In this document: piece after piece, positions 16,771 through 55,891 of the stretch
Layout: each line of letters opens with the position of its first letter
Numbering within the stretch: the first letter of the stretch is position 1
Source: Pseudoscleropodium purum
Taxonomy: Eukaryota; Streptophyta; Bryopsida; Hypnales; Brachytheciaceae
Length of the DNA: 64,000 bases
Assembly (NCBI GenBank): GCA_963969395.1
Contig: OZ017801.1
Coordinates: 13,583,611 to 13,647,610 of the forward strand
Direction: 5' to 3'
Program-made: the position numbers and the translations under genes
Notes under the pieces: model-generated
Database searches by the model: none
Told to the model about the DNA's origin: nothing
The model's input: the letters and a program-made list of their open reading frames with translations, nothing else

Positions 16771-17050
16771 GTACTTGTGTCATGATCAATTGTGCGTTGC
16801 ATCTTCCAATTATTCACTACTCTTTCAATATAGCTGTACAAATTATAAATTTCAAGACATAAAGGTAGTCCCTTCTATGGAGGCCGATTCACTATACTTC
16901 TCACATGGCTCAAAATGTATTCGTCAATGACAGAGAAAATTAGCATAGTGGTAGAAACACTACTCACTCTTTGTATTCTGCTCAGCAACTCGATGTGTCA
17001 ATGACAAAATTGTAGAACAAGTCCCTGCGTTCTTCCGTAAGCTTACTTGT
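16771..17050 (-). pseudogene. CACTA-1 transposase remnant between two insertions
   Basis: This is CACTA-1 sequence stranded between the gypsy element and solo-LTR unit 2. The minus-strand segment ending at 17050 keeps the DUF4218 tail frame of 20361-20639 open across the unit-2 insertion (a TEERRDLFYNFVIDT block comparable with the FVLDNAA tail of CACTA-2) until a TGA near 16980. The remainder is degenerate. Confidence 0.55.
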
Positions 17051-17114
17051 TGTCGCAGCACAGGGCAGGTCAATTCCCCATTATACTCACAAAAATCGCT
17101 CTAGAGTATAACTA

Positions 17115-17187
17115 AGTGACTCTAAAGATCGAACCCACGAGATCCTGTGAAGTATCTAGCTCTATTAAGCAGTTAAGCTAAGTCAGT
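17115..17187 (-). other. tRNA-like module in solo-LTR unit 2
   Basis: The position and sequence match the unit 1 module. The acceptor-like strands are plus-strand agtgact (17115-17121) and agtcagt (17181-17187), with A-box-like and B-box-like motifs at tRNA spacing between them. It lies 64 nt from the end of the unit, as in the sisters. Confidence 0.5.
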
Positions 17188-19898: not shown

Positions 19899-20360
19899 TC
19901 ACATCTACCTCACTCTCTCCTAGCCGCACGTCCCGTTCCTCACTTCCTCTCTCCGATCTCAACCGGAAGCAGAACAGACAAAACACAAACGCTCAGACGC
20001 ACAAACGACAAAAACTCAACCGCGCACGCTCAAGGTCGAGTTTCTAAAAGGGGGTGCAACAGTGAAAGCTCCTCCTTTTATAGTCCCTGGACCCTTTCCG
20101 GTTTGTCATCATGAATCCGGGTTACCATCATAATCCGGTTCATCATCATCATCCGGTCCTAGACCTAATCCGTGTTACATTTCGTTTCCGTCGTTAGTTA
20201 CTCCTGACCGGATTGGATCTAAGAAGCCCACTACTTCACGTTCCGTGCTAATTCTGAGTTTTCCTTTCCCACCTAATCGGATCCGGTTAGCTAATGACTA
20301 GTTTCCGTTCCTATTTTGGTGTATACTAAGAAAATCAAAATTCTAAGCTGCGACACTTGT

Positions 20361-31815: not shown

Positions 31816-31819
31816 AATA

Positions 31820-31847
31820 AAGGCCATATTCGTTAATTTGAGACAAA
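31820..31847 (+). repeat. Left 28-bp TIR of the 24-kb transposon
   Basis: It is identical over 28 bp to the complement of 55864-55891. Beyond this the two ends differ, although both contain 'gagactttcaaa' a little further in. Confidence 0.85.
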
Positions 31848-32731
31848 ATGGTCATTTTGAGACTTTCAAAACACAAGTGCAACGTTTTTTTGACAATATA
31901 GTTGTTCAATTCAATGATAAATAAAGTTTAGTATTGAATGACTAAGCAACCTTGAGACTGCGATTTCAAACAAATGTAGCCAATGAAGGAAAATTACATT
32001 AGTACACCATATAATTAAAAAATTTTGTTCACATCGAAGGAAAAATATTGAAAGAGTTTGCACTCAACAAGTTCAATTTACTTGGAATATTAAACTATAT
32101 TATTCTATTTTGAATGGCTTGTAGCATTTCTTCATAAATGAACTTCTAATTTCTTAGAGTTTGTGTGTATATACAAAGTGGTTGCTTGCTTTGTTTTTCA
32201 AAATACTAGATTTTTACATTATATCTACCTTGTTATTAACCTATAAAGTCCCAAGGTATTTTTGAAGACAAAGACCATTCAAAACTGCTATTTCTATTGC
32301 AAAGAGGAAGAGAGTATTCAAAGTCTTGCAAAAAATACTTGAAAATGTTTTTATTTCTATTGCAAAAGAGCAAAAAATTGGCTTTCTTTTAGATTTGACT
32401 ACAGGATCTTGTACTACACTAGTATAAAAATGTGGAGTATGATGTTTCAAAAACTTTCACCACGTGGATATAAAGATATTTACATTTAAAGGACAAGAAA
32501 ACATGTATTTCCTAACCTTGCTTGGCAAGCTTTTTTGGCTTAGTTTGAATCTTCTTAACTTAAATAAATTTGTAGGACGCATTTTGATTTTATATTTTGG
32601 GATGTTGAACAACTGTGTTGAAAATGTAGACCATAGAAATTCAACAACAAAGTACTAAATTTTCACTCATTCAATTAATACTAAGCAGATGTAGATTCAA
32701 GGTTGAAATAAAAACTAAATTCTTAATAGTT
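31848..32731. other. Left end region of the 24-kb transposon
   Basis: AT-rich noncoding DNA between the left TIR and solo-LTR unit 3. Short open frames (32241-32450 minus, 32464-32658 plus) have no recognisable content. I see no repeats beyond the TIR-proximal 'gagactttcaaa'. Confidence 0.5.
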
Positions 32732-32932
32732 TGTCGCAGCTTAGAATTTTGATTTTCTTAGTATACACCCAAATAGGAACAGAAACTAGTCATTAGCTAA
32801 CCGGATCCGATTAGGTGGGGAAGGAAAACTCAGAATTAGCACGGAACGTGAAGTAGTGGGCTTCTTGGATCTAATCCGGTCAGGAGTAACTAACGACGGA
32901 AACAGAATGCAACACGGATTAGGTCTAGGACT

Positions 32933-33006
32933 GGATTATGATGGTGAACCGGATTATGATGGTAAACCGGATTCATGATGACAAACCGGATTCATGATGA
33001 CAAACC
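32933..33006 (+). repeat. Four tandem 18-19 bp U3 repeats
   Basis: The unit GGATTATGATGGTRAACC or GGATTCATGATGACAAACC occurs four times in a row directly upstream of the first TATA box. Units 1 and 2 have three copies. Position and copy-number change suggest a promoter-proximal enhancer array. Each join creates a CCGG. Confidence 0.65.
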
Positions 33007-33022
33007 GGAAAGGGTCCAGGGA

Positions 33023-33030
33023 CTATATAA
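33023..33030 (+). promoter_or_regulatory. TATA box of the LTR gene (unit 3)
   Basis: CTATATAA lies about 190 bp before the ATG at 33216. In units 1 and 2 the same place reads CTATAAAAGG. The distance leaves a 5' leader of about 160 nt. Confidence 0.5.
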
Positions 33031-33215
33031 GGAGGAGCTTTCACTGTTGCACCCCCTTTTAGAAACTCGACCTTGAGCGCGCGCGGTTGAGTTTTTGTCG
33101 TTTGTGCGTTTGTGCGTCTGTACGTTTGTGTTTTGTCTGTTTTGCTTCCGGTTGAGATCGGAGAGAGGAAGTGAGGAACGGGACGTGCGGCTAGAAGAGA
33201 GTGAGGTAGATGTGA

Positions 33216-34880
33216 GTGGGAATGCCTCAGCTACGTAGGTCTAGACCAGCGAGTCCCTCTGGAGGTGAGGTGAAGCTCCGGAAAGTTATTCCGGTTATTC
33301 CCTCCACAGAGCCGGAAAAGTCTCAACTCATGGATGATCTCAAATCCATGGGTTGCGTAGGGTTTGCCGAGAAACCTTGGGGTTTTAGGGAGGAGAGAAT
33401 GGTCAAGGAGCTCCTCGGAAAGTTGTCCAACCAGTTTGACAACACCGTGAGGGGAACTCCCGTCAGCTGGAACGAGGGGATGTGGAGAGCGGTTTACGGT
33501 TTCCGGGTAGGAGGTTTGGGAATGGCGAGCCGGAAGGATGAGTTTGTCCGAGGGAAGTTCAAGGGAGCCGTCAACCCGAAGGACGGATACGCGGTCGAGG
33601 ATTGCTTGGATGACCGACACCGTCGGCTCCTGCAATTCCTGGTTCCGGTTCTTCACCTGGAGAAGCCGACCAGGGTGACGATCACCCTCGGCAACACCAT
33701 TTTCGGTGCCCTCAGTGGTACCCGGAAAGTGGACTGGGCACGGATCATTTCCGATCTCGTGGCCCAACTCGTTAGTAGGGTTGGGAAGAAAAGGGCCACT
33801 CCAGTGTGCCCTTATCTCTTCCACCTCTATCGGGAGAACCAAGTCCTCACCGACATGGAGGAGAGGGCGTGGAAGACGCAGGAAGTGCTCCTGAAGTATG
33901 GGGAGTCGGAGACGGATGACGAGGCGGAATCCGATTCCGGGTCAGACCGGGAGTCCAGCGAGGAAGAGGAGGAGCCGATGCCACCGATCAAGCGACAGAA
34001 GCTGACACCTCCACACAAGCGCGGGACGCCTCCCGGTCAAGATAAACCGGCCCCGGAGGAGAAACCGGAAGCCGAGAAGACCAATTCCAGGGGAGATCCG
34101 GATATGCAAGATCCGTTCAACGGTCTGATCAACGTCCTTTGCAACATCAGGGCGGATTGGGAGGTCAAGCACAGGACACTTGCGGCAATCGGCAAGTTGG
34201 TGGGTGCGGCACCGGACAGCAAATTGGCGGAACAAGTGGCGGAGTGCATCACGAATCCGGAAGAGACCCGGAAGCAGAAAGCAGAGATCCGCCGGTTGCA
34301 GGAGGAGGTGGATAAACTGAAGGCAACTCTTTTTGCCTATCAGGAAGACGTGACGGCCGCCCGGGAGATGGCGGAAGAGACTCGGAAGATAGCCGAGCAG
34401 ATCAAGGCGGTCCTGGGAGAGACCGGAACGGCCGCTGCCAAAGCGAAGCTCTTCGACGAGAAGATCCACGAAGAGAAGAAACTATCCGGTTCCCGGATGG
34501 TCCGGATTCTCGCGGACTTCGCTGAGCAGGTGGAGACGACAATGGTGGAGGGGCGGAAGGCAGCGGACCGGATCGAGGAGAGCAGCTGGAAGCTGACGGG
34601 AGCGACGTGCGACAAAGGTATTCATCTTTCTGACATCTCGCTACCGGATCTCTTTCCGGACGCGACCATTCAGAAGGATAGGAAGGATTGGACTCCTGAG
34701 TCCAAGAAGTCTGCACGGACTGGGACTCCGGGCACGAGACCGGATATCACCATCGACCTGGAGTCTCCACCCGGACCGAATCCTGCTGAGGGGGAACGGG
34801 TCCGGAATTTGAGTGAAGTCTTCGAGGAGCTAGTCCCGGAGGTCGGAAGCCCGACGATAGGATCTCGAGTTGTAGGGTAG
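33216..34880 (+). CDS. LTR-encoded coiled-coil protein, unit 3 copy (intact, 554 aa)
   Basis: An uninterrupted ATG-to-TAG frame inside the LTR. Domains: a globular first ~230 residues (EKPWGFREERMVKELLGKLS, then RRLLQFLVPVLH and GNTIFGALSG); an acidic Asp/Glu/Ser tract at about 231-253; a basic patch PIKRQKLTPPHKR at about 257-269, a plausible nuclear localisation signal; a Pro/Glu-rich linker; a long coiled coil at about 348-460 (IRRLQEEVDKLKATL); and a low-complexity tail. The 110-180 region faintly resembles the domain found in plant retrotransposon-associated 'putative plant transposon' proteins, by eye only. I see no catalytic motif. The gene is in LTR sense orientation. It stays full-length in two of three copies, which suggests recent activity or selection. 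It could act in trans on nucleic acid or particles; this is inference. Confidence 0.7.
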   Translation: MGMPQLRRSRPASPSGGEVKLRKVIPVIPSTEPEKSQLMDDLKSMGCVGFAEKPWGFREERMVKELLGKLSNQFDNTVRGTPVSWNEGMWRAVYGFRVGGLGMASRKDEFVRGKFKGAVNPKDGYAVEDCLDDRHRRLLQFLVPVLHLEKPTRVTITLGNTIFGALSGTRKVDWARIISDLVAQLVSRVGKKRATPVCPYLFHLYRENQVLTDMEERAWKTQEVLLKYGESETDDEAESDSGSDRESSEEEEEPMPPIKRQKLTPPHKRGTPPGQDKPAPEEKPEAEKTNSRGDPDMQDPFNGLINVLCNIRADWEVKHRTLAAIGKLVGAAPDSKLAEQVAECITNPEETRKQKAEIRRLQEEVDKLKATLFAYQEDVTAAREMAEETRKIAEQIKAVLGETGTAAAKAKLFDEKIHEEKKLSGSRMVRILADFAEQVETTMVEGRKAADRIEESSWKLTGATCDKGIHLSDISLPDLFPDATIQKDRKDWTPESKKSARTGTPGTRPDITIDLESPPGPNPAEGERVRNLSEVFEELVPEVGSPTIGSRVVG

Positions 34881-35029
34881 ATAGGATTTTAATTTCAGTT
34901 AGGAGTAGGAGCGGATCCGGATCCGGATCCGGCTCAACAGTATTAGGTTAGACCGGAAGTTAGATTAGGGTAGCGGCAGACCCCACGGGTTTTCCGCTCC
35001 TTTTTGTGCTTTTAGGGTTTTACCCTTTG

Positions 35030-35037
35030 TATATAAA
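35030..35037 (+). promoter_or_regulatory. Second TATA box, presumed LTR promoter
   Basis: TATATAAA lies 150 bp after the stop of the LTR gene and points out toward the 3' end of the unit. This is where a retrotransposon U3-R promoter is expected. The same box is present in units 1 and 2 (complement of tttatata near 11865 and 18078). Confidence 0.5.
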
Positions 35038-35856
35038 TCGGTTCCTGAGATGGGAACTGGGAGTTGTTCATTTTGCAAACTTCTTGTACTTTTCTATTCT
35101 TTTCATTGTGTGTCTCTCTCCAGCGCGACAGGATTGTATGATGTGGAGTTAGGATAGTACGAGTTGGTTTGCAAGTGATTTCTCCCCTTGGTGTTTATTT
35201 TCCGATCCTAGGTGCATGTGAGTAGGTATCGAAGAGTTGGGAGTGAACTTAGTTCCTCAGCATGTCTAGAGTTTGAGATTCCGGGTGAGAAAGCCGTTGT
35301 TAGGCTAGGCGGGTAGGGAGGGATTCCTTAGCTGCGCTAGAACTCCCGGGTGGGAAATCCGGTTGAGTGTCCGATCTCCTGTGAGGTCTCACCACCCGTA
35401 TGGGTAACGGAAGAACTTTAGTTGATGTTGGAACGGACGGGTGCACTTGTAACCACCTGTCTTCGCACGGATCGGAAGTAGCATCAAGGTCGTTGTAGTA
35501 CGAGAGGGTCGAGTGTGGGGTCTTTGTGTGACCTACAACCCGGATTGCTATCTGGGTTGTTGTGAAGGACCAAACCGGATCCGGATTAGCTTAGGAGTTT
35601 AGAAGGTAGGACAGTGGGTCTTCAGCCACTATAAGTCACGGAAGGAGTGGTGGGCCTACCACTCTCAAAATTAAGCAGCGACCCCTCTGATGGTGAAACA
35701 GAGGCAAAACCAAACCGGATAGGATTACGGGTACAGGATGACCATCCGGACCGGATTGGTCAGGACGGATTTTCAGGATTGGAAATTGTGAGATCCTGGG
35801 ATTTGGGTATTTGTACGGACCGGATAGTTAGTAGGACCGGAAAGTAAGATTGGCAT

Positions 35857-35929
35857 ACTGACTTAGCTAAACTGCTTAATAGAGCTAGATACTTCACAGG
35901 ATCTCGTGGGTTCGATCTTTAGAGTCACT
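35857..35929 (+). other. tRNA-like module in solo-LTR unit 3
   Basis: A 73-nt segment. ACTGACT (35857-35863) pairs with AGTCACT (35923-35929) with one mismatch. TAGCTAAACTGC fits the pol III A box except its last base, and GGTTCGATC resembles a B box placed 45 nt after the A box start, the tRNA spacing. A D-arm forms (GCT/AGC core). The T stem GTGGG/TTTAG would be nearly perfect if three T were C, consistent with deamination. The anticodon arm has one extra base or mismatch. It is not a working tRNA. It may be a remnant pol III promoter. Confidence 0.5.
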
Positions 35930-35998
35930 TAGTTATACTCTAGAGCGATTTTTGTGAGTATAATGGGGAATTGACCTGCCCTGTGCTGCGACATAGTT

Positions 35999-36884
35999 CT
36001 AAGATGAAATTAAAACACAATAATTCCAATGGTCAAATTGTTGTAGCAAATATACCCAACCTATTTAACAATGTTTTTGGAAGAGGGTGTCAAAATTGCA
36101 TTCGAATGTGAGTTCTATTAGTTGTTTTTTCCTGAAAATGCTCAAATTGTCACAAAAACAAGATTGTCCATAACTTTCTCATTACTTCTCCAAATGGATG
36201 AACCAAAGCTTCAAATATAAAGTTAACACAAATGTGACATACAAGAAAAAAATATCAAAGAATTTATTTCAATTTTATTGGGAATTTTTTGGACTGCCCG
36301 GTCTCCTCTAAGATTCAGCTAGCATAATGAATGCTTTCAGACACCGATTGAAATAAAAATGAAATTTCCCTAAAGCTAATGGATTTCTCTATGTTATAGG
36401 AGTTTTTGAAAGTTTCACTAAATTTCTTGAGCTCATAGATATAGTACTAAACCACCCTTCTCTTGGAGGAACTATTGACGACCCCGTCCTCCATGTTTCC
36501 CTTCGAGTACTCTATGGCCACGGACGCTGCATCGAAGGCGGAGCACAACAAGTACAGTTTGGAAAAAGGTGCAGTGTCACAACTACCATCCATGGACTCG
36601 CTACAAGTTGAAAAAGACTTTTCTGATCTAGAAAGGAGGCTCCACGTGAGCCTCCCATTTGTAGGAAGGCTTGCATCAAACAGGAGTCCAACCTAAAGCA
36701 AGTACAAAATATTTAAATGCTTGAGACATGATCCTCCAACAAGCAACAACAATCGCTAATAGCACTGACCTAATTGGACACATAAGAAGAAATCCAAGGA
36801 ATAGAATAAAAAATCTAAACTTTGAAATTTTTTTTCAATATTTACGAAACATTATTTACAAAAGATTATTTCATTTTGCAACTC
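35999..36884. other. Noncoding part of the 24-kb transposon with a coding-like island
   Basis: This is DNA between solo-LTR unit 3 and the end of the ParB/methyltransferase-like gene. 36463-36696 on the plus strand is a 77-codon frame that is clearly less AT-rich than its surroundings (FPFEYSMATDAASKAEHNKY...) and may be a fragment of a captured gene. I recognise no domain. The rest is AT-rich and featureless. Confidence 0.35.
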
Positions 36885-37497
36885 TTATATTTGTTGCTCT
36901 GAGTCAGAATCCTCGTTAGCTTTGTCATCCCCACTCTCATCTATTTCTTGCAGGTCACTCTCATTCTCGTCTTCAGAATCTCTCTCTCTGTCGTGCCTCT
37001 GTTGTCGCTGCGCTTCAAATTCAGGATCTGCTTCGATGTCTCCATCATCCTCACGAGACTCAACAGGAGCATTGATGAGAGACGTTTGTGTTGCATTTGC
37101 CTCCGCCACGTCCCTTTCGAGTTTACCAAACACCTGCTCGTCTGGATCAGACCCTTCTTCACCAACCTTTTCTTCTTCTTCGGATTCATCTTCTGTCTCA
37201 AAGGGAACAGATTCGAGTACTTTTGAAATAAGACAGGGTGGATTTGTATACGACGCCGAGTAGGGAGAGTTTGAAAATAAGAAATCATTAAGATCCATCT
37301 GATCAACAACACTTGATATATTCTTGAACAAGTCGACATCTTCTTTCTCGACCATCCCATAAAAATACGCTCCAAACATCTAACCCACAAGCAGAAGGAT
37401 GTAGCTCAATGAGAATGAGAACAAACGCTTTGGACAATGGACCATTGTCAAATCGATGATAACAGTATACAACAATAGCAATGTACAAAACAAAGAA

Positions 37498-37520
37498 GTT
37501 ATCATTGAGTCAAGGATAAC
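37498..37520. repeat. Dispersed copy of the 24-kb element palindrome
   Basis: GTTATCATTGAGTCAAGGATAAC is a 23-bp near-palindrome of the same type as those in the arms (first 20 bases GTTATCATTGAGTCAAGGAT). It lies in intron 2 of the ParB/methyltransferase-like gene, directly next to the hAT MITE duplication. Confidence 0.6.
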
Positions 37521-37527
37521 TATTAGT

Positions 37528-37827
37528 TAGGGTTGACAAGACATCCGGAAGCGGACGCTGACATTCGCGTCTCGGCGGACGCAGCGTCCGCTTGTCCCCC
37601 GTCCGCTTGTCCGCTCGTCCGCCCTGTCCGCCCTATTACGGCCGTCCGATCGACGCGCGGACTGATCTGGTCCGCACGATCTGGGCGTCCGCCTCGGGCC
37701 ATCCGCCTCGCCCCGCCCGTCCGCTTTTCGACGGCGGTCGGGACGCTGCATCCGCTAGCGTCCGTGCGTCCGGACGTCCGGAAAACGGACGCTATTTTGG
37801 GGCGGACGTTGACATTCGTCAACCCTG
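37528..37827. mobile_element. GC-rich hAT-type MITE (300 bp)
   Basis: The ends are TAGGGTTGAC and, complemented, CAGGGTTGAC, typical hAT-style termini. An 8-bp duplication CTATTAGT flanks it at 37520-37527 and 37828-37835, diagnostic of hAT. The interior is very GC-rich with many GTCCGC/GCGGAC repeats that can fold back. It sits in intron 2 of the gene at 36885-40389. The open frames inside it are by-products of its composition. Confidence 0.85.
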
Positions 37828-39230
37828 CTATTAGTAGAATGTACATACCTTTGAGGCCATCATGAGCTTCATGCCTGAAAAAATTCCAAGAATATTTTTT
37901 GGGGGGTCGGCAAAGCTCTGCAAGATCTCTAAATAAAACTCCATTCGGAGTTCGCCAATATGTACTCTGTACTTTGCTTCCGTGTTTTTGGCAGGTTCCT
38001 TGTAGTACACACAATCAGAGGGCGTATCATACTTGATTCGCATCAATGGACGTACGGAGGCAACAAAATCATTGTCTTTCTTGAAAAGGAAGAGAAGTGG
38101 TACATCTGGAGCAGTCGTTTTACTACCTACGTTGTTCAGTTGCTCGCCCTTTGAAGGGACATAAGTAGAGAAGACAACATCATAGTCTTTTAGACTTGTA
38201 GCTGCAAACTTTGTTGCGGCTTCAATGTCATCCGAGTCATTTAAGATGAAGGGCCACACATTTGGCTCTGTAATGGCAGGCTCCAATTTCTCTTTCAAAA
38301 AGATCAAAAACGGGTCAATAGTAGCTTCAATCTCTATGGGTGTGATCTTGACGACAGCCCTAGCATCAAAGACTGCCAAGTTGAGCTGCTTAGGGGAATA
38401 CAAGTAGTTGCTGTGCGTTACTAGCGTCTTTCCAACACTGTCAACTCCCCGCATTTGTACTCCTCCGATATTCACCGGAAGCTCAAACTTTAGTTGCACA
38501 AACCTCTTGAACATGTGGAGCACTTCTGGGAATTCTGTCTTCAAATCTATCACTCGCTTCAGGCGTGCTTCGTTCCTCAACCGCTTCCTAAAATACTCTG
38601 ATTTTGGATGCGAGAGTAAGAAATCCCATGTTGCCGATGAGAACCTGCTTTTCACCTTCCACGTTGCCCACATCTTATTTTTCACATCACCTACGCTATC
38701 CAAAAATTTGAAACTTGGCTTCAACTCCATCAAATCCTGTATGATTACCTTCTTATGTTTTCTGCGCTCCATTCAATCGGATGCAATGTGATTGTCGGCT
38801 ACTGGGATCCTTATTTTGGAAATAGACACCTTCGGATACACCACACCGCGATTTGTTCTGCCAATGAGGTGCTTTGCGAATTCCTCGAAGTTAGTATCAG
38901 TGAAGTGCCCAAAATGTCTGAAGAACTCTCGCTTCAAATTTTGATTGTTCACCTTGAATCCTTTCTCTACTCTGAATGGTTCGTCGGTGAGGGGATTAAT
39001 CAATTTGCCTTCAGCATGCATGGTTAGGAATCGTTCCCAATGCACCCATTTCTTCTCCGGCAATGTTATGATTTGGAGTTCATTCTTTAGGTCCGAAGTG
39101 GAGTTAATCTTGGAGCCATCTTTGTCAGGATTTATGTTTTGGAACCTTTGAATAACAGCTAATGAGAAACTCTGCAGTTCAAAATTAAATGTCTTTAGAG
39201 TAGAGCACATAGTTCATTTCTTGTACATCA

Positions 39231-39401
39231 ACTTATCGTTGACTCAAGGATAAGTCCTGAATGCTAAGGAGAATGAAAAAATGTATGACTTCTAGACTAT
39301 TGTAGTGCTCAAAAGAATGTATAGGTCAAAGCTAAATTTCTTGAGAGTAGAGCATGTCATTCATAGCATATACCACAACTTATCATTGACTCAAGGATAA
39401 G
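39231..39401. repeat. Two further palindrome copies in intron 1
   Basis: ACTTATCGTTGACTCAAGGA... at 39231-39254 and AACTTATCATTGACTCAAGG... at 39377-39401 are near-palindromes of the same family as the arm repeats. Both lie in the intron between exons 1 and 2 (39172-39516). Confidence 0.6.
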
Positions 39402-40376
39402 TCTCAAATGGAAAGAAATTGTAGCCATGACAAACTTCAAAACATTCATTATGGCTCAGATTTTTAGCAAAGGAATCTGTTCTTCACTACATAAGTTTGA
39501 AGGAATTGAACCTTACCTTGTAGTTATTCTCGTTGTAGATCGAGCCGTTGCCTCTGACCTTTGGCTCCAAACTATTGATCGCTGGGCATTTCAAAATGCT
39601 CCAAATGTTCCGACACGCAATTAACTGGTTGCCCCAAGTTGGTTGGGCATGATGTAGGTGGTTGATGAGATTGTAGAACTTTGAGATGTTTCGAAGTTTA
39701 TTTGGATCTTGAGTCCAAACAATTAAGGCATCCCAATTTTAGAGGTCAGCTTTCCGGTCTTCATCGCATGCTTCATTCTGAAGTTGTTTTGAAGCCATAA
39801 TGCTATGCTGACCGTTGATAATCATAAATCGCATATTTTTAATGTCCTTCCATTTCTTTGGCTTTTCCTTCAAAAGCATTTTCCGATCATCAATTGGAGT
39901 GAGACACACTTTTTGGCATTGACCTATTTCCACCATTTGAATAAGAACTCGCTTCATGTCATTCACCATATTCTATTGCAGTGTGCGAATGACGTATTCG
40001 TCGCTCGCTATAATACACTGTTCGATGTCGACTGTCACTGTAACCATGTCAAAGAGGAAGCAGTCCCTATGCTCCTTCCAAAAGTCTTTTTGGATTTTGC
40101 CAATTTCCTCAAAGTCTGGAATTTGACCTTTGAAGGCTGCTAACCCAACAGAGTTTGTAGTCAAACATGAGCCTGAACTAGCTGCACCTTCTGTACCAAC
40201 CATGAAACTCTTCCTTCTCTTTTGACTAGTTTCTGCTCCTACTGGTGCACCCCTCTTCTTTGGCTCAGATCTTGTGTTCCCTAGCTTTGCTCTACTTCCG
40301 GATGTTGTGGGAGCAGACGGCTGTGGTGTTGCAAATCCAGTTTTTTGCCTCCGTCCTTGTGTTGTTCTTCGACCCA

Positions 40377-43300
40377 CTAAATGCTTCATAAACAGTCTTC
40401 TAATATGATCAACTCTATATCACATCAATATACTGAGGTTCATATTCTAAATTTCTAGAATTGTTTGGTTATCGGTGAGTTGACGATAACTTTGATGATA
40501 GAAAATAACATACAAAGTAATCATTATATATTTCAGGCTAGCAATTACAATTGATTATTGTGAAATGAACACACCCTCAGATTTGAGTAAAAGTCATCAT
40601 TGACTCAACGATAACTTTGTATATATTTCACAAAAGTTGATTATTGTGAAATGAACGCACCTTTGGATTCTACCAAAAGTTATCATTGACTCAACGATAA
40701 CTTGGCATATATTTCTCGATGTTGATTATTGTGAAACGAATGCACCCTCGGATTTGAATAAAAGTTATCATTGACTCAACGATAACTTGGCATATATTTC
40801 ACAAAAGTTGATTATTGTGAAATGAACGCATCTTCGGATTTGAATAAAAGTTATCGTTGACTCAACGATAACTTTGCATATATTTCTTGACAATGGATTA
40901 TTGTGAAATGAACGCACCTCTGGAATCTACCAAAAGTTATCGTTGACTCAATGATAACTTTGGATATAGTTCACAATAGTTGACTATTGTAAAATGAACG
41001 CACCTTTGAATTCTACTAAAAGTTATCGTTGACTCAACGATAACTTTGCATATATTTCTTGACAATGGATTATTGTGAAATGAACGCACCTTTGGATTCT
41101 ACCAAAAGTTATCGTTGACTCAATGATAACTTTGGATATAGTTCACAACAGTTGATTATTGTGAAATGAACGCACCTTTGAATTCTACTAAAAGTTATCG
41201 TTGACTCAATGATAACTTTGCATATTTTTCACGACAGTTGATTATAACTAATACAAAGCAGTATACCTCGCGATTATAACATTCAAAAACATAATGCACT
41301 TCCAGATGGACCTAACATGGGTTCTTTTCACACAAATTTTGTTTCAACATCTACATGGGGCTACATGACCAAAGACTCTTTTCCGGTTGAGAAAATATGA
41401 GGAAGCGTATTTTGCAATTGGAACAATACAATGGACACCGCACTTCCTAACATGAATTCCTTTCATACTGATTTTGTTGGAGCGACATCCACATGGGGTT
41501 GCATGATTGAAGACTACAATGTGATCTACAAAAAATACAAAGTGTACTTCACGCTTACAACAATGCAAAATACACCACGCTTCCTCATGGACCGAACATA
41601 AAATCTGAATACTAATTTCTTAAGAGAAATATCTACAGGGGGTTGCATGACCAAAAACTACAATATTCTCCGCACAATAATTGAAAAGGGAATTTTGCAA
41701 TTGCAACAACGCAAAAGACACTACGTTCTTCATACACTAAAAATGAATTTTTCCTATATCAATTTCATAAAAGCGGCATCTACATGGAGTTGCATGATGA
41801 AGGACTAAAATTTCCTCCGTAGAAAATATGAAGCGTACTCCAATTACAACAATGCAAAATACACTACGCTCTCATGGACTCATCATAAATTCCGTTCATA
41901 CCAATTTCTTAAGAGCAACATCTACATGGAGTTGCATGACCGAAGACTACAATTTTCTCCAAACAATAATTGGAAGCATACTTCGCGATTACAACAATAC
42001 AAAGACACCACCTTTCCTCATACACCCAACATGAATTCAAGACATACCAACTTCAAAATAGCAACATGTATATAGGGTTGCATGACCGAAGATTGCATTT
42101 CTCTAGGCGGAAATGAGAAAAGTAGTTGTGACACTTGTGATTACAACATTGAAAACCTAAATGCGTCTCCTCACAGATTCAATATGAACTACTTCCACAC
42201 CAATTTCTTAAGAGCAATGGCTATATGTATGCAGATGCTTCTATGTTTCAAAACAAACAACAACGGCAACACCTTGGTAATGCTACAACCTATTTGAGGA
42301 TAATGGCACTTACTCGAAACTCATAGCAACGTCCACGCTCGCCACTGAAACTGTCAAACTTGGGCCAGAAGATGTTGGAATACAATACGCCGCAGTCCGC
42401 AAGAGTACAAGAAAGCTCAACAAAGGAAAATGAACAAGTCAGCTACAGAAAGACTGATTAATTTTGATGTGAAATTGGCACAGAAGATGGAGGTTCCGGA
42501 GAAGGTAGACAGAGCTTCTAGAGAGTAGGCGCGGAAATACTTGAGCAAAATGTTTTGGATTTTTGTATTTCCCTCAAATTCCTCAACATCATTCCACATC
42601 GGCGTACAACTTCTCTGACATCACTTAACGCTTTGAGCAATGTCAGCACATTCCTTGTCAGGTTTACACCATTGGAGTGCGGCGCCTTTAGTATGGAATC
42701 AACAACAGATTTGCCAACATTATAATGTTTATTAATAGTGTATATATTTATTCACATTCTTTGGATGATATTTGATGAATTTATGAAGGGCTGACATACC
42801 ATGAAACAATACTTCCCAACAGCTACACACTTAAAGTAGGGGGCTCAAAAATCATTCATCTAAAGAAAAAGATGCATTTTTATTATTTTCGTTATTTTTG
42901 ATATTTCGTTACAATATAACAAAATAACAAAATAACATAAATAACAAAATAACAATATGACAAAATTAAAAAATTAAAAAAACAATTATTGCTCAAATAA
43001 ATACTAAAAATTTTAAATTTTAAATTCAAAATTTTAAAATTTAAAATTTTAATTCAAATTCAAAATTTTAAAATATATAATTAACAATATAATAAAATAA
43101 CAATGTAAAAAAATAACAATATAACAATATAACAATCATACTACTAAAATCATAACTCCCATTGTAATATTGCAAATGCTACCATTAATACTAAGGACTA
43201 CTGCTTGTTATGCTACGCATTCATTGTATCACATTGGTAAAATTATGATACATTTCAATAGAATGCATGATAATGATTTCAATAAGTCTTTAAAATAATT

Positions 43301-44578
43301 ATTTTAAATTTTTGGTAAAAGTACTTTCAATTATGCATACATAGATATCATATTTTTTCACAATGTGATATTTCAGAAATACAGTAGCAATTTGCATCAC
43401 CTTTGTAATATCACTTATTACAAAGAGTGATATTATAGAAATAATATAGTTGTTGCAATTAAGGTGATATTAAAGAAGATTTGTAGGGTGATATTATAGA
43501 GGTAGCAATTCCATTGCTTCTCTTGGCTTACATTTCTATGATTTTGTGCTTTTGTGAGTTTTGAGCTTTCATGATTTCCATTTTCAATTGCTATTATCAA
43601 ATGATTTTGAGAAATTTATTCAATTCAAGCAATTTTGAATTTCACAACAATTAAGCTATTTACAAAGTTTTTGATATTTATAAGTTTTTCTTTTCAATTC
43701 TTCAATTTGAGGTGCCATTCTTTGTAAAAAATTGAGTCAAATTTCTAATGCATTCTAATATACGTGTATCCCTCATAGTATTCACTATTGCATATATTTC
43801 ATTCATCATTCCATAAATTCCTATTGTACATTTCAATATATGCTTACTTGTACAGGAAATTATACAAAGATTTTTGTAAATTTTAATTAAAGATTTTTTG
43901 AATTTTTTTCGCATTTCAGGTGGAAAGTGAATACGCTCAGCAAGACGTAGTCGGAATTGAAACGGAGTGTTTTTTTCTTTGGAAAATGACGGTGCTTTCA
44001 TGAAAACACAGAGAGAACAAACAATTAGGCTGGCTCACTTAGCAAACTAATTAAATGAACCGGTAACTAAATTAATAAAATGAAATATGGTGTTAAGGCA
44101 GGTACCCCAAAAATCGCCACTTTTATGAATTGTGTCTAGTTATTATTGTTAGACTAGTCAAATTTTCATATTTTCATATTGGCAAGTGAAAGGAAGTTCT
44201 AGTGTACTAAAAAACATGACACTTGGATACCATATACATAAGTTATGGAGGGTCAAAGTTCTTTTTGGTAGATGTTCTCAAATCATTTATTCAACATATG
44301 TACATATTGATTTGGGATATGTACACAAAAAGATGGTGATGGTTTTAAGTAGGGTGCAATTTTGGGTGTACTCACCTTAGTTCTTTATATTGATGAAGTG
44401 TCCGGAATTTCCCAATCCTAAGAAGAAATCCTCTCTACAACCCACAATCACCAACATGGGTAAGTAACTCCACAATAGTTTGTCAAGGACTTGGGATTAT
44501 AAATTCATTTTCAAGCTAATTATGTAATTATAAAGAGTGAATTATTATTGTTAGTAATTTTTTGAAAAGAAATAGGCT
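40377..44578 (+). repeat. Left arm of a 4,202-bp inverted repeat
   Basis: Every position x here corresponds to 92579-x in the right arm (48001-52202) with no indel. All predicted frames are identical in the two arms, and the stretches I compared directly (both ends, the tandem array, the AT-rich homopolymer zone) show no mismatch. The outer end holds the first 13 nt of the gene at 36885-40389. The inner part contains an orphan copy of the first exon of the spacer gene (44393-44459). Besides the 86-bp array there is an AT-only zone at about 42880-43140. I see no other gene in the arm. Confidence 0.9.
40565..41240. repeat. 86-bp tandem array with 29-nt palindromes (left arm)
   Basis: About eight units, with GACTCAA centres at 40602, 40689, 40773, 40859, 40945, 41031, 41117 and 41203 (spacing 84-87). 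Each unit contains a palindrome whose left half is AAAGTTATCGTTGA and right half its complement around a single central base, then TGATTATTGTGAAATGAACG. The regular spacing and symmetry look like a protein-binding array. Confidence 0.85.
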
Positions 44579-47500: not shown

Positions 47501-48000
47501 TCCAAATTCTTGAAAGTTTCACTTCTTATCAAACTCGACTTAAATAAATGATGACTTACGAAATCTTCATATGTCAGTGTACAGTTGCCCCAAAGATCCT
47601 GTAATTTCCTACTAAACTTCACTTGATGAACAAAGATAGTCTCATTTTCATATTGTGTAACAAAGGCAGTACACCTAGTGTGAAACATGTAAGGGAATGT
47701 ACCTTGAAGCTCTTCATCTTCTAGTGTGACCCTATTATTAAACCCTGCTCTTCTAAAAGTTAGGAAGCATTCTCTAGTGATGAAGAAATTGGTACTATTA
47801 ATAGGAATTGATTTGGGCAGGTAATTGAGTTCATCAAAAGTTAAACCCACTCCAACACTTTTCAACCAGCCAAACAATCGATACGTTTCTCCTCGAAGTA
47901 TCGGCTTGAACGTATTCAAAACCAACAAGGCCATCTTGGAGTGCAAAGATTGCCACCAATCCATGACCATGAATATGATATTTGGCAAGGTGAGGCCTAA
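44579..48000. other. Spacer between the inverted arms
   Basis: 3,422 bp of single-copy sequence within the giant inverted repeat. The right part holds the second exon of a small gene (47317-47996). A 116-codon frame at 46050-46400 on the minus strand may be part of another gene. 44579-46000 is AT-rich with no gene seen, apart from a slightly more GC-rich patch at 45660-45780. Confidence 0.6.
46050..46400 (-). CDS. Uncharacterised ORF in the spacer
   Basis: A 116-codon frame ending WEILNVNFDIPTL. A possible acceptor (ATGCAG) precedes LRRAYYFLGRLYPASK, so it may be a 3' exon, perhaps of the gene whose exon 2 ends at 47317 or of a separate gene. Its composition is coding-like (RRAYYFLGRLYP, KPADFNHILRTITHMF, EGREGSIWSLIGG). 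I recognise no domain. Confidence 0.35.
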   Translation of the reverse strand: MTMQLRRAYYFLGRLYPASKATILYPQRSIQVFKPADFNHILRTITHMFNCGNEFLAPPCLIYNAELDGNLLQVVCEGREGSIWSLIGGLQLRILREKKIWAQWEILNVNFDIPTL

Positions 48001-48186
48001 AGCCTATTTCTTTTCAAAAAATTACTAACAATAATAATTCACTCTTTATAATTACATAATTAGCTTGAAAATGAATTTATAATCCCAAGTCCTTGACAAA
48101 CTATTGTGGAGTTACTTACCCATGTTGGTGATTGTGGGTTGTAGAGAGGATTTCTTCTTAGGATTGGGAAATTCCGGACACTTCAT
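47317..48186 (-). CDS. Two-exon gene spanning the arm-spacer junction, unknown function
   Basis: Exon 1 is 48186-48120 (22 codons plus one base, starting MKCPEFPNPKKKSS) inside the right arm. The donor is GTAAGT, the intron 123 nt (48119-47997), the acceptor TTAG, and exon 2 is 47996-47317 in the spacer. The splice restores phase exactly and gives about 248 aa. Exon 2 includes WLKSVGVGLTFDELNYLPKS, TCRTAFVTQYENETIF-like and DWRREWLYFHATSTLDYLNE segments. No domain recognised, no stop inside. The arm boundary at 48000/48001 falls in the intron, 3-4 nt before the exon. The left arm has the same exon 1 without an exon 2. It is the only gene-like unit of the 24-kb element that looks intact. Confidence 0.45.
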
Positions 48187-51100
48187 CAATATAAAGAACT
48201 AAGGTGAGTACACCCAAAATTGCACCCTACTTAAAACCATCACCATCTTTTTGTGTACATATCCCAAATCAATATGTACATATGTTGAATAAATGATTTG
48301 AGAACATCTACCAAAAAGAACTTTGACCCTCCATAACTTATGTATATGGTATCCAAGTGTCATGTTTTTTAGTACACTAGAACTTCCTTTCACTTGCCAA
48401 TATGAAAATATGAAAATTTGACTAGTCTAACAATAATAACTAGACACAATTCATAAAAGTGGCGATTTTTGGGGTACCTGCCTTAACACCATATTTCATT
48501 TTATTAATTTAGTTACCGGTTCATTTAATTAGTTTGCTAAGTGAGCCAGCCTAATTGTTTGTTCTCTCTGTGTTTTCATGAAAGCACCGTCATTTTCCAA
48601 AGAAAAAAACACTCCGTTTCAATTCCGACTACGTCTTGCTGAGCGTATTCACTTTCCACCTGAAATGCGAAAAAAATTCAAAAAATCTTTAATTAAAATT
48701 TACAAAAATCTTTGTATAATTTCCTGTACAAGTAAGCATATATTGAAATGTACAATAGGAATTTATGGAATGATGAATGAAATATATGCAATAGTGAATA
48801 CTATGAGGGATACACGTATATTAGAATGCATTAGAAATTTGACTCAATTTTTTACAAAGAATGGCACCTCAAATTGAAGAATTGAAAAGAAAAACTTATA
48901 AATATCAAAAACTTTGTAAATAGCTTAATTGTTGTGAAATTCAAAATTGCTTGAATTGAATAAATTTCTCAAAATCATTTGATAATAGCAATTGAAAATG
49001 GAAATCATGAAAGCTCAAAACTCACAAAAGCACAAAATCATAGAAATGTAAGCCAAGAGAAGCAATGGAATTGCTACCTCTATAATATCACCCTACAAAT
49101 CTTCTTTAATATCACCTTAATTGCAACAACTATATTATTTCTATAATATCACTCTTTGTAATAAGTGATATTACAAAGGTGATGCAAATTGCTACTGTAT
49201 TTCTGAAATATCACATTGTGAAAAAATATGATATCTATGTATGCATAATTGAAAGTACTTTTACCAAAAATTTAAAATAATTATTTTAAAGACTTATTGA
49301 AATCATTATCATGCATTCTATTGAAATGTATCATAATTTTACCAATGTGATACAATGAATGCGTAGCATAACAAGCAGTAGTCCTTAGTATTAATGGTAG
49401 CATTTGCAATATTACAATGGGAGTTATGATTTTAGTAGTATGATTGTTATATTGTTATATTGTTATTTTTTTACATTGTTATTTTATTATATTGTTAATT
49501 ATATATTTTAAAATTTTGAATTTGAATTAAAATTTTAAATTTTAAAATTTTGAATTTAAAATTTAAAATTTTTAGTATTTATTTGAGCAATAATTGTTTT
49601 TTTAATTTTTTAATTTTGTCATATTGTTATTTTGTTATTTATGTTATTTTGTTATTTTGTTATATTGTAACGAAATATCAAAAATAACGAAAATAATAAA
49701 AATGCATCTTTTTCTTTAGATGAATGATTTTTGAGCCCCCTACTTTAAGTGTGTAGCTGTTGGGAAGTATTGTTTCATGGTATGTCAGCCCTTCATAAAT
49801 TCATCAAATATCATCCAAAGAATGTGAATAAATATATACACTATTAATAAACATTATAATGTTGGCAAATCTGTTGTTGATTCCATACTAAAGGCGCCGC
49901 ACTCCAATGGTGTAAACCTGACAAGGAATGTGCTGACATTGCTCAAAGCGTTAAGTGATGTCAGAGAAGTTGTACGCCGATGTGGAATGATGTTGAGGAA
50001 TTTGAGGGAAATACAAAAATCCAAAACATTTTGCTCAAGTATTTCCGCGCCTACTCTCTAGAAGCTCTGTCTACCTTCTCCGGAACCTCCATCTTCTGTG
50101 CCAATTTCACATCAAAATTAATCAGTCTTTCTGTAGCTGACTTGTTCATTTTCCTTTGTTGAGCTTTCTTGTACTCTTGCGGACTGCGGCGTATTGTATT
50201 CCAACATCTTCTGGCCCAAGTTTGACAGTTTCAGTGGCGAGCGTGGACGTTGCTATGAGTTTCGAGTAAGTGCCATTATCCTCAAATAGGTTGTAGCATT
50301 ACCAAGGTGTTGCCGTTGTTGTTTGTTTTGAAACATAGAAGCATCTGCATACATATAGCCATTGCTCTTAAGAAATTGGTGTGGAAGTAGTTCATATTGA
50401 ATCTGTGAGGAGACGCATTTAGGTTTTCAATGTTGTAATCACAAGTGTCACAACTACTTTTCTCATTTCCGCCTAGAGAAATGCAATCTTCGGTCATGCA
50501 ACCCTATATACATGTTGCTATTTTGAAGTTGGTATGTCTTGAATTCATGTTGGGTGTATGAGGAAAGGTGGTGTCTTTGTATTGTTGTAATCGCGAAGTA
50601 TGCTTCCAATTATTGTTTGGAGAAAATTGTAGTCTTCGGTCATGCAACTCCATGTAGATGTTGCTCTTAAGAAATTGGTATGAACGGAATTTATGATGAG
50701 TCCATGAGAGCGTAGTGTATTTTGCATTGTTGTAATTGGAGTACGCTTCATATTTTCTACGGAGGAAATTTTAGTCCTTCATCATGCAACTCCATGTAGA
50801 TGCCGCTTTTATGAAATTGATATAGGAAAAATTCATTTTTAGTGTATGAAGAACGTAGTGTCTTTTGCGTTGTTGCAATTGCAAAATTCCCTTTTCAATT
50901 ATTGTGCGGAGAATATTGTAGTTTTTGGTCATGCAACCCCCTGTAGATATTTCTCTTAAGAAATTAGTATTCAGATTTTATGTTCGGTCCATGAGGAAGC
51001 GTGGTGTATTTTGCATTGTTGTAAGCGTGAAGTACACTTTGTATTTTTTGTAGATCACATTGTAGTCTTCAATCATGCAACCCCATGTGGATGTCGCTCC

Positions 51101-52202
51101 AACAAAATCAGTATGAAAGGAATTCATGTTAGGAAGTGCGGTGTCCATTGTATTGTTCCAATTGCAAAATACGCTTCCTCATATTTTCTCAACCGGAAAA
51201 GAGTCTTTGGTCATGTAGCCCCATGTAGATGTTGAAACAAAATTTGTGTGAAAAGAACCCATGTTAGGTCCATCTGGAAGTGCATTATGTTTTTGAATGT
51301 TATAATCGCGAGGTATACTGCTTTGTATTAGTTATAATCAACTGTCGTGAAAAATATGCAAAGTTATCATTGAGTCAACGATAACTTTTAGTAGAATTCA
51401 AAGGTGCGTTCATTTCACAATAATCAACTGTTGTGAACTATATCCAAAGTTATCATTGAGTCAACGATAACTTTTGGTAGAATCCAAAGGTGCGTTCATT
51501 TCACAATAATCCATTGTCAAGAAATATATGCAAAGTTATCGTTGAGTCAACGATAACTTTTAGTAGAATTCAAAGGTGCGTTCATTTTACAATAGTCAAC
51601 TATTGTGAACTATATCCAAAGTTATCATTGAGTCAACGATAACTTTTGGTAGATTCCAGAGGTGCGTTCATTTCACAATAATCCATTGTCAAGAAATATA
51701 TGCAAAGTTATCGTTGAGTCAACGATAACTTTTATTCAAATCCGAAGATGCGTTCATTTCACAATAATCAACTTTTGTGAAATATATGCCAAGTTATCGT
51801 TGAGTCAATGATAACTTTTATTCAAATCCGAGGGTGCATTCGTTTCACAATAATCAACATCGAGAAATATATGCCAAGTTATCGTTGAGTCAATGATAAC
51901 TTTTGGTAGAATCCAAAGGTGCGTTCATTTCACAATAATCAACTTTTGTGAAATATATACAAAGTTATCGTTGAGTCAATGATGACTTTTACTCAAATCT
52001 GAGGGTGTGTTCATTTCACAATAATCAATTGTAATTGCTAGCCTGAAATATATAATGATTACTTTGTATGTTATTTTCTATCATCAAAGTTATCGTCAAC
52101 TCACCGATAACCAAACAATTCTAGAAATTTAGAATATGAACCTCAGTATATTGATGTGATATAGAGTTGATCATATTAGAAGACTGTTTATGAAGCATTT
52201 AG
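48001..52202 (-). repeat. Right arm of the 4,202-bp inverted repeat
   Basis: The exact mirror of 40377-44578. Its inner end carries exon 1 and most of the intron of the spacer gene. Its outer end ends in the same ATGAAGCATTTAG as the left arm. Here that start codon leads into a short meaningless frame rather than a gene, so the left arm is probably the original for that end. Confidence 0.9.
51339..52014. repeat. 86-bp tandem array with palindromes (right arm)
   Basis: The mirror image of 40565-41240 at the outer end of the right arm. It has the same unit number, spacing and sequence, including unit-specific variants such as the one with 'gatgactttt'. Confidence 0.85.
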
Positions 52203-52251
52203 AAAGTGCCAATGGCTTTTTTTACCTTAGACCTACTGCAAGCTTATAGTA

Positions 52252-52274
52252 TTTATCATTGACTCAACGATAAA
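52252..52274. repeat. Palindrome copy just outside the right arm
   Basis: TTTATCATTGACTCAACGATAAA (first 20 bases TTTATCATTGACTCAACGAT) lies 50 bp beyond the arm, upstream of the DUF7869 gene. It is the right-hand counterpart of the copies near 37500 and 39230-39400. Confidence 0.6.
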
Positions 52275-52476
52275 CTATTCAAAATTAGATTACATTACTT
52301 TTGACATTAGATGAAAGTTGACACGATGCATTTTTAAATTCTTTAGAGTCAGTCCATCTATATCTTATCTATTCTTACTTTTCATCAAGTTGATGATACA
52401 TTTCTAATACTCTAGCATCATCAGTTGTTTAAGGGATGTGTATTTAAATTAATATTTTGGGTACTTTTTCTTGCAG

Positions 52477-55309
52477 AACATTTCATACACCTGAAGAGTT
52501 TACAACTTCTGTACCTACACTACTTGAAGGAGTTTTTCAGTGTGATGGAATTCCTCGAGCAAAATGGAATACGATGCCAATCACTATCAAAAACAATGCT
52601 GGGGATGATGTCGCAAATGCAATTTGTTATACTGTGGATCCCGAGCTCGTCATCAATACAAATGGAGAGCCTTTGGGTGATGATCGAGTGGCCATTCAAA
52701 TTGCAGAGTCTTTATGTGAAGAGGAAGTTCCGTCCTCTTGGATGTGGTCAATGCGATCTTGGCACATTAAACAAGTATTTCTGAATGGTGCCAGTTTGTA
52801 TGACCATGACCAAACGTACATTTACAATACAGCTGTGTCTACCGCGAACAAAAGAGTTCGTAAAGGACTTCGACGGTATGAAAGCATGCATGAAAGGCTT
52901 GAGCCTAATCTTCCTCCAAAATAGGAATCCCTCCTCACAATGCAGTCTATTGTTGAAGTATCAACTATAACATGTTGTGTGAAAAATTGCTTACAGCCTT
53001 TCCCACGTGGACAAATTCAAGCCATCCGGTGCCAACTTCATGTGAATGACAGAGTGTATGCCCGCAAGAAGTGTCTTCTTGAGGTACATCGGCAAATCCA
53101 CAAAGACAATGACGGCAAGGATTGTATCACTTTGAAAGGAAGGGAAGTGTGTCCTCTAGCTTGGTACACCATCCACGGTATATCAAAAGCAACTTTCTAT
53201 AGGTACAAGGAAATGGCTAGAGTTGGGAAGCAAGCAGAGGGGCACGGGAATTCGGGGTCCAAAAAACCCTGTACACATACCTTGCAAGCAACTGCCACGC
53301 TTCGGACATTGCTTGTGTCAAATGTAGACAAAATGCCACATAAAAATAGGACAATGGAGTCTGGAGAGAAAGTAACCGCAATGGTTTTGCCATCACCATT
53401 TCGTTGGCGTGACCAATTGCCAATCCTCAATGAGGCCAATGCAATGTTGAATTTACAGCCAATATCATCTAGTGGCTTGAGCAACATTCGGTGTGCTTCT
53501 TTTCCAGAGTATGCACCAAAGGCTCGAGGAGATACTTTTGTGCGTTGTGGCTTGTGTGATCGATACAAGCAACTCAGATGTGCATGCACTCCATTTTCGG
53601 TTGCACAAGAAAAGTGGTCTACACTTTTAAATATTCACCTTATAGGCCAAAGGGCACATAGAGAATTGTACTATGCAAATTGTTATATATTCGAAAAATA
53701 CCCTGACAAAATGCTTACTATCATTCATGACAAATGGATCACTCCAAGACGGCTTCGCCACACTTCTCTCACAAGACCAAGTCGATAGATCCTTTTATGA
53801 AGATGCCCATTGCTGTGACGGGTATGATAGCACATGGTCATGATGATGTCCGATATGCACACTATGGCCTCAACATATTTCCAACAGACTCAAACCATAC
53901 TGTTAGATCCATTGCAAAATTATTGCGTGATTTAGAAACACCTCCAAAGAATTCTTCCCGCAATTTATTTTCAGTAGAAGAAGGGCAATCCTTGTTAACA
54001 AAGGCGCTTTTGAGTGGTTCAGAAGCTTGCTTGGATTCACTACTTCCCCCTTTTGATGAATCACTTTTGGCTCATCCTCTTCCACCAATATTAACTTTCC
54101 AGCTTGATAATTGCTCTGGAGACAACAAGAACCGATGGGTTTTTGCCTATTGCTCTTTGCTAGTGTACAAAGGCATTTTCAAGGAGGTATACGTAAATTT
54201 CTTTATTGTTGGGCATACTCACGAAGACATCGATGCTCTTTTTGGTCGATGGAGCACGAAGTTGAAAATGAATGACTACCCAACACTTCCGAAGTTGATG
54301 AAATCATTTATGGATTGTGAATCACACCCCGTAATTCCTCATCTTATAGAGGAGGTTCCGGACTTCAAGACATTTGTGCATGGATATTTGGGCACAGGTG
54401 GAAATTTTTTAGAAGGTCATTCTTTTTCCCAACAGTTCAAGTTTTCTATGAATTCTGATGGATGGCCCATAATGGAGTATAAGGACCTTTGCACTGACAA
54501 GGACTGGTTGCCGGAAAATGGCAAAGGAATTCGGTTGTGGAATGAGACTGAAGATGGGCGTTCTAATGTACCCAATGGTAGTCCACTACCTCTAAAACTG
54601 GAGCAGATTAAAGCCTTTGTTGAGGTAAAGAAAGAATTAAATGGTTTCATTGCTTATTGGAACCAAATGGCCAACGACAATGCCTCTGGAGAATTTAGAT
54701 GGAAAAAACGATCCCATCAAGAAGTATTGGGTGGGTGTTAGAGCTACATTTGATGCACCTCTATAAGTGTGAGAGAGGCTATTAGATGCTTTTTGGCCTA
54801 CTTCTAGAGTCACTCATGACGACGTTGACCGAAGGCAAAGAGATGGCATAATGAATGAAGAAGAAGCAGAGGATCGCCCTTTTGTTGAACGTAGGCGTGA
54901 TCGTCCTCCACCTTCATTTCGTATTGTACGTGATACGCATGCAGGTTCATTTGTTGTAGTGTGCCCTGCAAATGGTGACCCAAAGCCATTTTGGCTTGCA
55001 AGGGCAATTACAAAGCCAAATCCAGATCCATCGCACATAAAACAAATCCAAATTCAGTATTGGACACTAGCTTCGGATCGAAACATTGACATGGAGACTT
55101 ATGGTGGGTGGGACACAAATGGAGGGATTCAATGGCGTGAAGACACAATAATATCTCCAACATGGTCGAATACAGATTGTATTATGATAGCATGGAAGCC
55201 TAGTTTTAGAAACGGAACATCAAACCTGCGAGCATCAATTTCGAAAAAGCAAATTGAGATCATCAAAGCATCATTGGCAGCTTTTATGGTTGAAGAAGAG
55301 ACTAGTTAG
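52477..55309 (+). pseudogene. DUF7869-type putative transposase (broken)
   Basis: After an acceptor TTCTTGCAG (52476) the frame runs to a TAG at 52922-52924, resumes in the same frame through 52925-53733, and shifts by one lost A at about 53734 within IHDK|MDH. It then runs 53734-54700, shifts again in an A-run near 54700, and ends in a third frame, 54851-55309. Cys pairs appear at CCVKNC and CGLCDRYKQLRCAC. Candidate RNase H-fold acidic residues are in IHDK, QLDNCSGDNKNRW and GHTHEDIDALF, the DUF7869 signature. The C-terminal part (FWLARAI, IQIQYW) could be a small beta-barrel chromatin reader. DUF7869 proteins are common in seedless plants and invertebrates and look like DDE-type transposases; that role is inference. 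The first exon was not found. Confidence 0.7.
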
Positions 55310-55863
55310 AATCTTCAATCCACGGATGAAGAATTCGTACTTAAATAAGTGAAGTGTTGTTTATATAGTTGTAAATATTATTTTTAGTTTTTGCATATTT
55401 TGAGCTCTACACATGGATATATGAATGTATTAAGTTTGTTATGATACAAAAGCAATCTAGCGCCGGATGACTATTGATTTCTATCAATGAAGTCATTTTT
55501 CTTATTATGATGTTTTTGAATTCTCTGCAAATGTATTGCACAATTATAAGGGATAGAAATAATTATGTTTCTTTTTATTACAATATGGAATAAAGAGTCT
55601 TTAGACCCTAAATCTAAACACATGCAAGTCTCAATTTAATGGATTGTCTCACTTTACTGTCTTATTAATTGTAGTATTTCTATATTCATAATAAAATTTT
55701 GCAAAATTTAAATGTTCAATAAGCACTTGCCACTTTCCAAAACAATAAGTAAATGATTACACATGGAAATTGACATTTGAAAGTCTCAATATTCCCCTAA
55801 TGTCTCAATTTAAGTAGAGCTTTTTCTACTACATTTTCAAGTTGTATGAAAATGAGACCTCAC
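55310..55863. other. Right end region of the 24-kb transposon
   Basis: AT-rich noncoding DNA after the DUF7869 gene and before the right TIR. It contains 'attgagactttcaaatg'-like phrases (complement strand near 55775-55790) that recall the left end just inside its TIR. No gene seen. Confidence 0.5.
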
Positions 55864-55891
55864 TTTGTCTCAAATTAACGAATATGGCCTT
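55864..55891 (-). repeat. Right 28-bp TIR of the 24-kb transposon
   Basis: It ends AATATGGCCTT and is the exact complement of 31820-31847. AATA follows at 55892-55895. Confidence 0.85.

Follow-up and report, generated by a model that had tools for sequence, protein, structure and literature searches.

The window analysed here is a stretch of 64,000 nucleotides from the genome of the moss Pseudoscleropodium purum (contig OZ017801.1, here C45, positions 13583611–13647610). Positions 31820–55891 of the window are occupied by a 24,072-bp element that interrupts a CACTA exon and carries two main genes, one for a DUF7869 protein and the other, here called the partner gene, for a ParB/methyltransferase-like protein. 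The element is bounded by perfect 28-bp terminal inverted repeats (TIRs) with the sequence AAGGCCATATTCGTTAATTTGAGACAAA and by a target site duplication (TSD), AATA. The first 25 bases of the TIR, allowing up to three mismatches, had two occurrences in the window and none in any of 100 shuffled sequences. When the flanks were rejoined by a script without the element, a single open frame ran through the interrupted exon; this restoration and the exact ends had both been claimed in the initial annotation and were verified. The identity between the element ends breaks off after 28 bp, and the long arms are internal. From left to right, the element consists of a nested insert, the minus-strand partner gene, an arm with palindromes, a spacer, the inverted arm and the DUF7869 gene, with both main genes pointing outward from the arms. 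The features are as follows:

31816–31819, no strand: left copy of the TSD AATA
31820–31847, plus strand: left TIR, 28 bp; at least 32 genomic left ends matched at full length
32732–35993, no strand: nested insertion of 3.26 kb with its own TSD, TAGTT, not belonging to the element proper
36885–37382, minus strand: exon 3 of the ParB/methyltransferase-like gene, acidic tail; predicted borders, at splice-like sites
37846–39174, minus strand: exon 2 of the same gene, with the methyltransferase fold in its 3' half and one in-frame TGA; predicted borders
39513–40389, minus strand: exon 1 of the same gene, with the INGQHS motif and two in-frame stops; predicted borders
40377–44578, plus strand: left internal inverted arm, 4202 bp
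40464–41322, no strand: left 86-bp tandem array with the palindrome TTATCRTTGASTCAAYGATAA
47317–48003, minus strand: spacer open reading frame (ORF) of 228 residues, without Pfam family, with moss homologs
48001–52202, minus strand: right internal inverted arm, 4202 bp
51248–52106, no strand: right 86-bp tandem array, again with TTATCRTTGASTCAAYGATAA
52477–55309, plus strand: DUF7869 gene, proposed transposase, pseudogenised here; predicted 5' border, at a splice-like site
55864–55891, minus strand: right TIR, 28 bp, with at least 37 full-length right-end matches in the genome
55892–55895, no strand: right copy of the TSD AATA

The host genome (313,191,705 bases in 52 contigs) was searched with the left and right 281 bp of the element, and 40 of 76 left and 40 of 54 right candidates were scored. 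The full-length left ends were 96–100% identical to the query and the right ends 94–100%, and the TIR was letter-perfect in 28 of 32 and 31 of 37, respectively. None of the copies found ended elsewhere, although an end-based search would miss copies with other ends. Each left end was paired with the nearest right end on the same strand. Within 70 kb this gave 24 pairs, 19 of them with exact 4-bp TSDs, and eight unpaired left ends; within 120 kb it gave 26 pairs and 20 exact 4-bp TSDs. Random pairing of the flanks produced a mean of 1.07 matched 4-bp TSDs and at most seven in 20,000 trials, compared to the 20 observed, and the same pairs tested for TSDs of 2, 3, 5 and 6 bp yielded 2, 1, 0 and 0 matches. 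The 20 exact TSDs are 86% A or T, without a fixed word. One of the six unmatched pairs has a single mismatch (ATTG/ATTA), and the arrangement on contig C43 described below is also among them. TSD-matched copies range from 18.6 to 66 kb, with one of 106.6 kb, and contain insertions. With shared ends, TIRs and a TSD of fixed length at unrelated sites, the 24-kb stretch belongs to a mobile family of the TIR DNA transposon type that has dozens of copies.

Six further copies (c48, c45a, c47m, c40m, c45b and c40p) were examined over 26 kb each. The start base was identical in all six, and the three in which both ends were present measured 22,581, 23,968 and 20,121 bp, with the TSDs AAAA, AATT and AAGT. 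Exon 1 of the partner gene, together with some or all of its exon 2, was present in all six, and four contained the spacer ORF. The only named homologs of the latter are two proteins of another moss, Ceratodon purpureus, at 47–48% identity. The nested insert, with ends TGTCGCAGC...GCTGCGACA and a 5-bp TSD, was missing from the same place in all seven other copies in which the left part was read (L003–L009); in c48, the repeat was present at another place. This 3.3-kb repeat occurs three times in the window (10832–14129, 17048–20356 and the nested copy), with the 5-bp TSDs CATGG, CTTGT and TAGTT. Two of the three copies have a 554-residue open frame, and no long direct terminal repeats were seen.

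The ORF at 53731–54741 matched PF25273 (DUF7869) with an E-value of 4.6e-47, and the protein conserves three aspartates. No match was found to the Pfam integrases up to E 0.1 or, by sequence, to the Protein Data Bank up to E 1. A DUF7869 gene was located no more than 2 kb inside 33 of the 37 right ends, bearing out the suggestion that genes of this family would be found within such ends. The window gene contains one stop and two frameshifts. In five of the six further copies it is single-frame but broken by in-frame stops, the c40p stretch being too short to reach the gene; the window copy thus differs by its two added frameshifts. Four of these five genes aligned over 959 residues of a reference protein from contig L001, and the fifth up to the edge of its stretch. 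In total, there were 181 DUF7869 matches in the host genome and 456 proteins were found overall. Phage records contained no DUF7869 match, and viral contigs contained no relatives of DUF7869 or of the partner and no exact TIR. The copies suggest that DUF7869 is the enzyme that moves the element, presumably acting as its transposase. The 8-mer TTTGAGAC was not enriched across the window (6 compared to a mean of 3.5, a number reached in 18 of 100 shuffles), and no subterminal binding sites are therefore proposed.

The contig L001, 4.3 kb long, is catalogued with a Synechococcales (cyanobacterial) metagenome-assembled genome and has an open DUF7869 frame of 963 residues. The gene is of the kind seen in the host and is probably a contamination of the bacterial assembly. 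No TIR was seen on this contig; AAGGCC occurs twice, both times inside the DUF7869 frame (chance mean 1.78), and the four matches to the arm palindrome (up to two mismatches) are not above chance (shuffle mean 2.08, maximum 6). Three of these matches are almost identical to each other, reading TTTAGCTCGASTCGAGCTAAA, and share the GASTC core of the arm palindrome.

Two other groups of DUF7869 genes could be tied to ends. In the second subfamily (967-residue frames), the similarity of two copies ends at a point with the reverse complement AACGTCATATTCAATAAAATGGGAG. The right ends read AACGTCATATTC and have the word AAnGnCATATTC in common with the window TIR. With up to three mismatches, the end word occurs 83 times in the genome and its reversed control not at all; at the 41 perfect places, a listed DUF7869 match lay up to 2.5 kb inside in 32 and 2.5–8 kb inside in three, with none listed in six. 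The left ends of this subfamily were not found. The third group has variants of this word, AAGGTCATATTCATTAAAATGGGAC as left and AACGCCATATTCATTAAAATGAGAG as right ends, and an exact 4-bp TSD (GGAT, CAAT and GCAA) was present in all three pairs read, that is, those with both ends in the end-word search and a DUF7869 match between them. These observations support a tie between DUF7869 and the ends in three subfamilies.

The partner gene probably has three exons, and in the window it is damaged by the three in-frame stops listed above. The fold of the protein matches beta-class N6-adenine DNA methyltransferases (M.BceJIV, CcrM, RsrI and M1.HpyAVI). Active members of this class have a DPPY-type catalytic motif and an FxGxG S-adenosylmethionine motif. 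In the partner, read against this consensus, the DPPY place is D-x-R and the FxGxG place resembles FAGAK; the motifs are thus apparently degenerate, and the protein is probably not catalytic. For the partner gene, Pfam, PHROGs and NCBIfam searches yielded nothing beyond weak similarity, the best match being DUF6925 (E 0.0024, 17.7 bits, with a cut-off of 27), and no ParB match. The ParB label of the initial annotation is plausible but not proven; it follows from reading INGQHS in exon 1 as a ParB-like motif.

A partner gene divergent to DUF7869 is present in all three subfamilies, at a median distance of 13–18 kb per class, and the partner proteins are 31–44% identical to that of the window. 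The pairing used 89 of 98 listed partner matches (nine were dropped as second fragments), 150 of the 181 DUF7869 matches and a guessed extent for contig C46, and its counts are lower bounds. No divergent DUF7869 was listed within 50 kb for 8 of 33 partner loci in family 1, 24 of 35 in the class with 36–49% identity and 3 of 21 in that with 31–35%; three of these 35 loci have one in another orientation. Since the divergent pairing is kept across three subfamilies despite the low identity, the partner gene is an old, retained component. Among the partner matches on contig C49 (12.7 Mb), many contain several stops; the region may be sex-linked or have little recombination.

The two arms in the window match over their full length without a mismatch. 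Both arms were available in five copies, namely the window, c48, c45a, c47m and c40m; in this order, a common part of 1.6–2.3 kb differed by 0, 0, 0, 0 and 0.09% within copies and by 1.35–2.09% between copies. The longest inverted alignments were 100% identical in the window (4,202 bp), 99.98% in c48 (4,341 bp), 100% in c45a (6,665 bp), where the arms extend into the spacer, 98.74% in c47m (4,379 bp) and 99.95% in c40m (3,832 bp). Homogenisation within a copy is faster than mutation. The palindrome TTATCRTTGASTCAAYGATAA (up to two mismatches) occurs 19–25 times per copy in the five copies, mostly in the parts of the arms beside both gene starts; the window contains 20, compared to 0.01 expected. 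Its core, GASTC, is a case of GANTC, the site of CcrM. In c45b and c40p, the left palindromes are about 125 bp apart rather than 86 bp, and the left arm is of a different version.

Rearranged copies were also found. At C43:9649503–9753440, two left ends facing each other, at 9649503 (ATTA) and 9685053 (ATAC), are followed by two right ends, at 9734258 (ATTA) and 9753440 (ATAC), with the TSDs exchanged. This order fits the prediction for a crossover between the arms of two elements, a Galileo-like inversion; misassembly at the arms would yield an identical picture. At C41:2312993–2339135 there are facing left ends (2320047 and 2339075) with identical 12-bp outer flanks and a right end 7 kb off, perhaps a larger inverted duplication.

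Several known systems were compared with the element. Galileo has long inverted repeats and differs from the element in its TSD and transposase. The element lacks the long terminal inverted repeats of a Galileo-like foldback: its end match, the actual TIR, stops at 28 bp, and its long arms lie in the interior. The likeness lies in the inversion with exchanged TSDs through ectopic recombination of two copies, reported for Galileo in Drosophila (PMC2775673) and fitted by the C43 order. Ginger1 and Ginger2 resemble the element in their 4-bp TSD, TIRs and integrase-like transposase; they have TGTNR termini and the TSD CCGG or CCGT (Ginger1) or the target RTATAY (Ginger2) (PMC2836005), whereas the element has AAGGCC ends, varied TSDs and a DUF7869 protein without a Pfam integrase match up to E 0.1, and the termini argue against Ginger. 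The termini likewise argue against CACTA/EnSpm and the CMCT clade, which have CA..TG termini in most cases (PMC12730594). The same paper describes fungal DNA transposons (KDZ, Plavaka and others) that, like the element, bear an additional gene with a link to DNA modification, but there a TET/JBP dioxygenase rather than a degenerate methyltransferase-like protein, and with TSDs of 8 bp (Zisupton) or 2–3 bp (Plavaka) rather than 4 bp.

Taken together, we consider it very probable that the element is a TIR transposon with DUF7869 as a DDD transposase, the partner as a DNA-binding accessory, and arms that are homogenised within copies. The DUF7869 protein would bind the AAnGnCATATTC ends, excise the element and join it to a four-base staggered cut. 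The partner, combining a ParB-like motif with a degenerate beta-class methyltransferase fold, would most likely act on the palindrome arrays flanking both gene starts, as a repressor or assembly factor. Gene conversion or repeated template switching may keep the arms identical in each copy, and the arms would be able to recombine between copies.

The name and kinship of such a transposon are a separate matter. Sola is described as having a DDD transposase, a 4-bp TSD, variable termini, TIRs of 11–1124 bp and lengths of mostly 2–9 kb, with some above 15 kb, and as known in the moss Physcomitrella (PMC10741241, PMC9033089). The element likewise has a 4-bp TSD, three conserved aspartates in DUF7869 and a moss host. 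Because these traits and the moss occurrence match, the chance that it is a very large Sola1-like lineage, with DUF7869 as a Sola transposase, seems to us only a little short of even; this would be compatible with the mechanism above. Nothing speaks directly against it in a comparison made by description, although the portions available mention no ParB/methyltransferase-like partner, arms or palindrome arrays for Sola. The initial annotation is thus supported in that the element is mobile and present in many copies, its ends are exact, its TSDs are 4 bp long and DUF7869 is tied to such ends in three subfamilies, while its status as an unrecognised superfamily is not settled. It is rather doubtful that DUF7869 marks a superfamily apart from Sola, defined by AAnGnCATATTC ends and a 4-bp TSD, in which the ParB/pseudo-methyltransferase and the GASTC palindromes form a second DNA-recognition module; the arms would then be identical within but not between copies because a stage of copying, or one outside the chromosome, would rebuild them in every round.

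Two further explanations concern the structure itself. Identical arms and end-swapped copies could be assembly artefacts at long inverted repeats, since arms of more than 4 kb that differ by 0–0.09% invite misjoins, and left-left or right-right structures are seen at C43 and C41. We consider this improbable: the arms of all five copies share the substitutions that set each copy 1.35–2.09% apart, and the c47m pair, at only 98.74% identity overall, is therefore not a simple duplicated contig. It is more improbable still that the element has two layers, a small DUF7869 element with the arms, spacer gene and partner as passive cargo. The wide size range of the TSD-matched copies and the insertions they carry agree with such an arrangement, but a divergent partner has been kept in three subfamilies.

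DUF7869 was named in none of the 5.39 million papers searched, a set without most subscription papers. The literature listed on 4-bp superfamilies, Sola, ParB/methyltransferase proteins, ferns and mosses, internal repeats and giant transposons (Repbase was not searched) contained no description of the element, four of the listings covering the top 10 of 14, 12 of 494, 10 of 819 and 8 of 31 rows, and a name for it may exist. PF25273 is a domain of unknown function, and the link in three subfamilies would make hundreds of proteins annotatable as belonging to transposons. The arms provide a natural test of gene conversion within an element and of inversions driven by transposons. In the partner protein, a plant transposon carries a methyltransferase fold of bacterial type.

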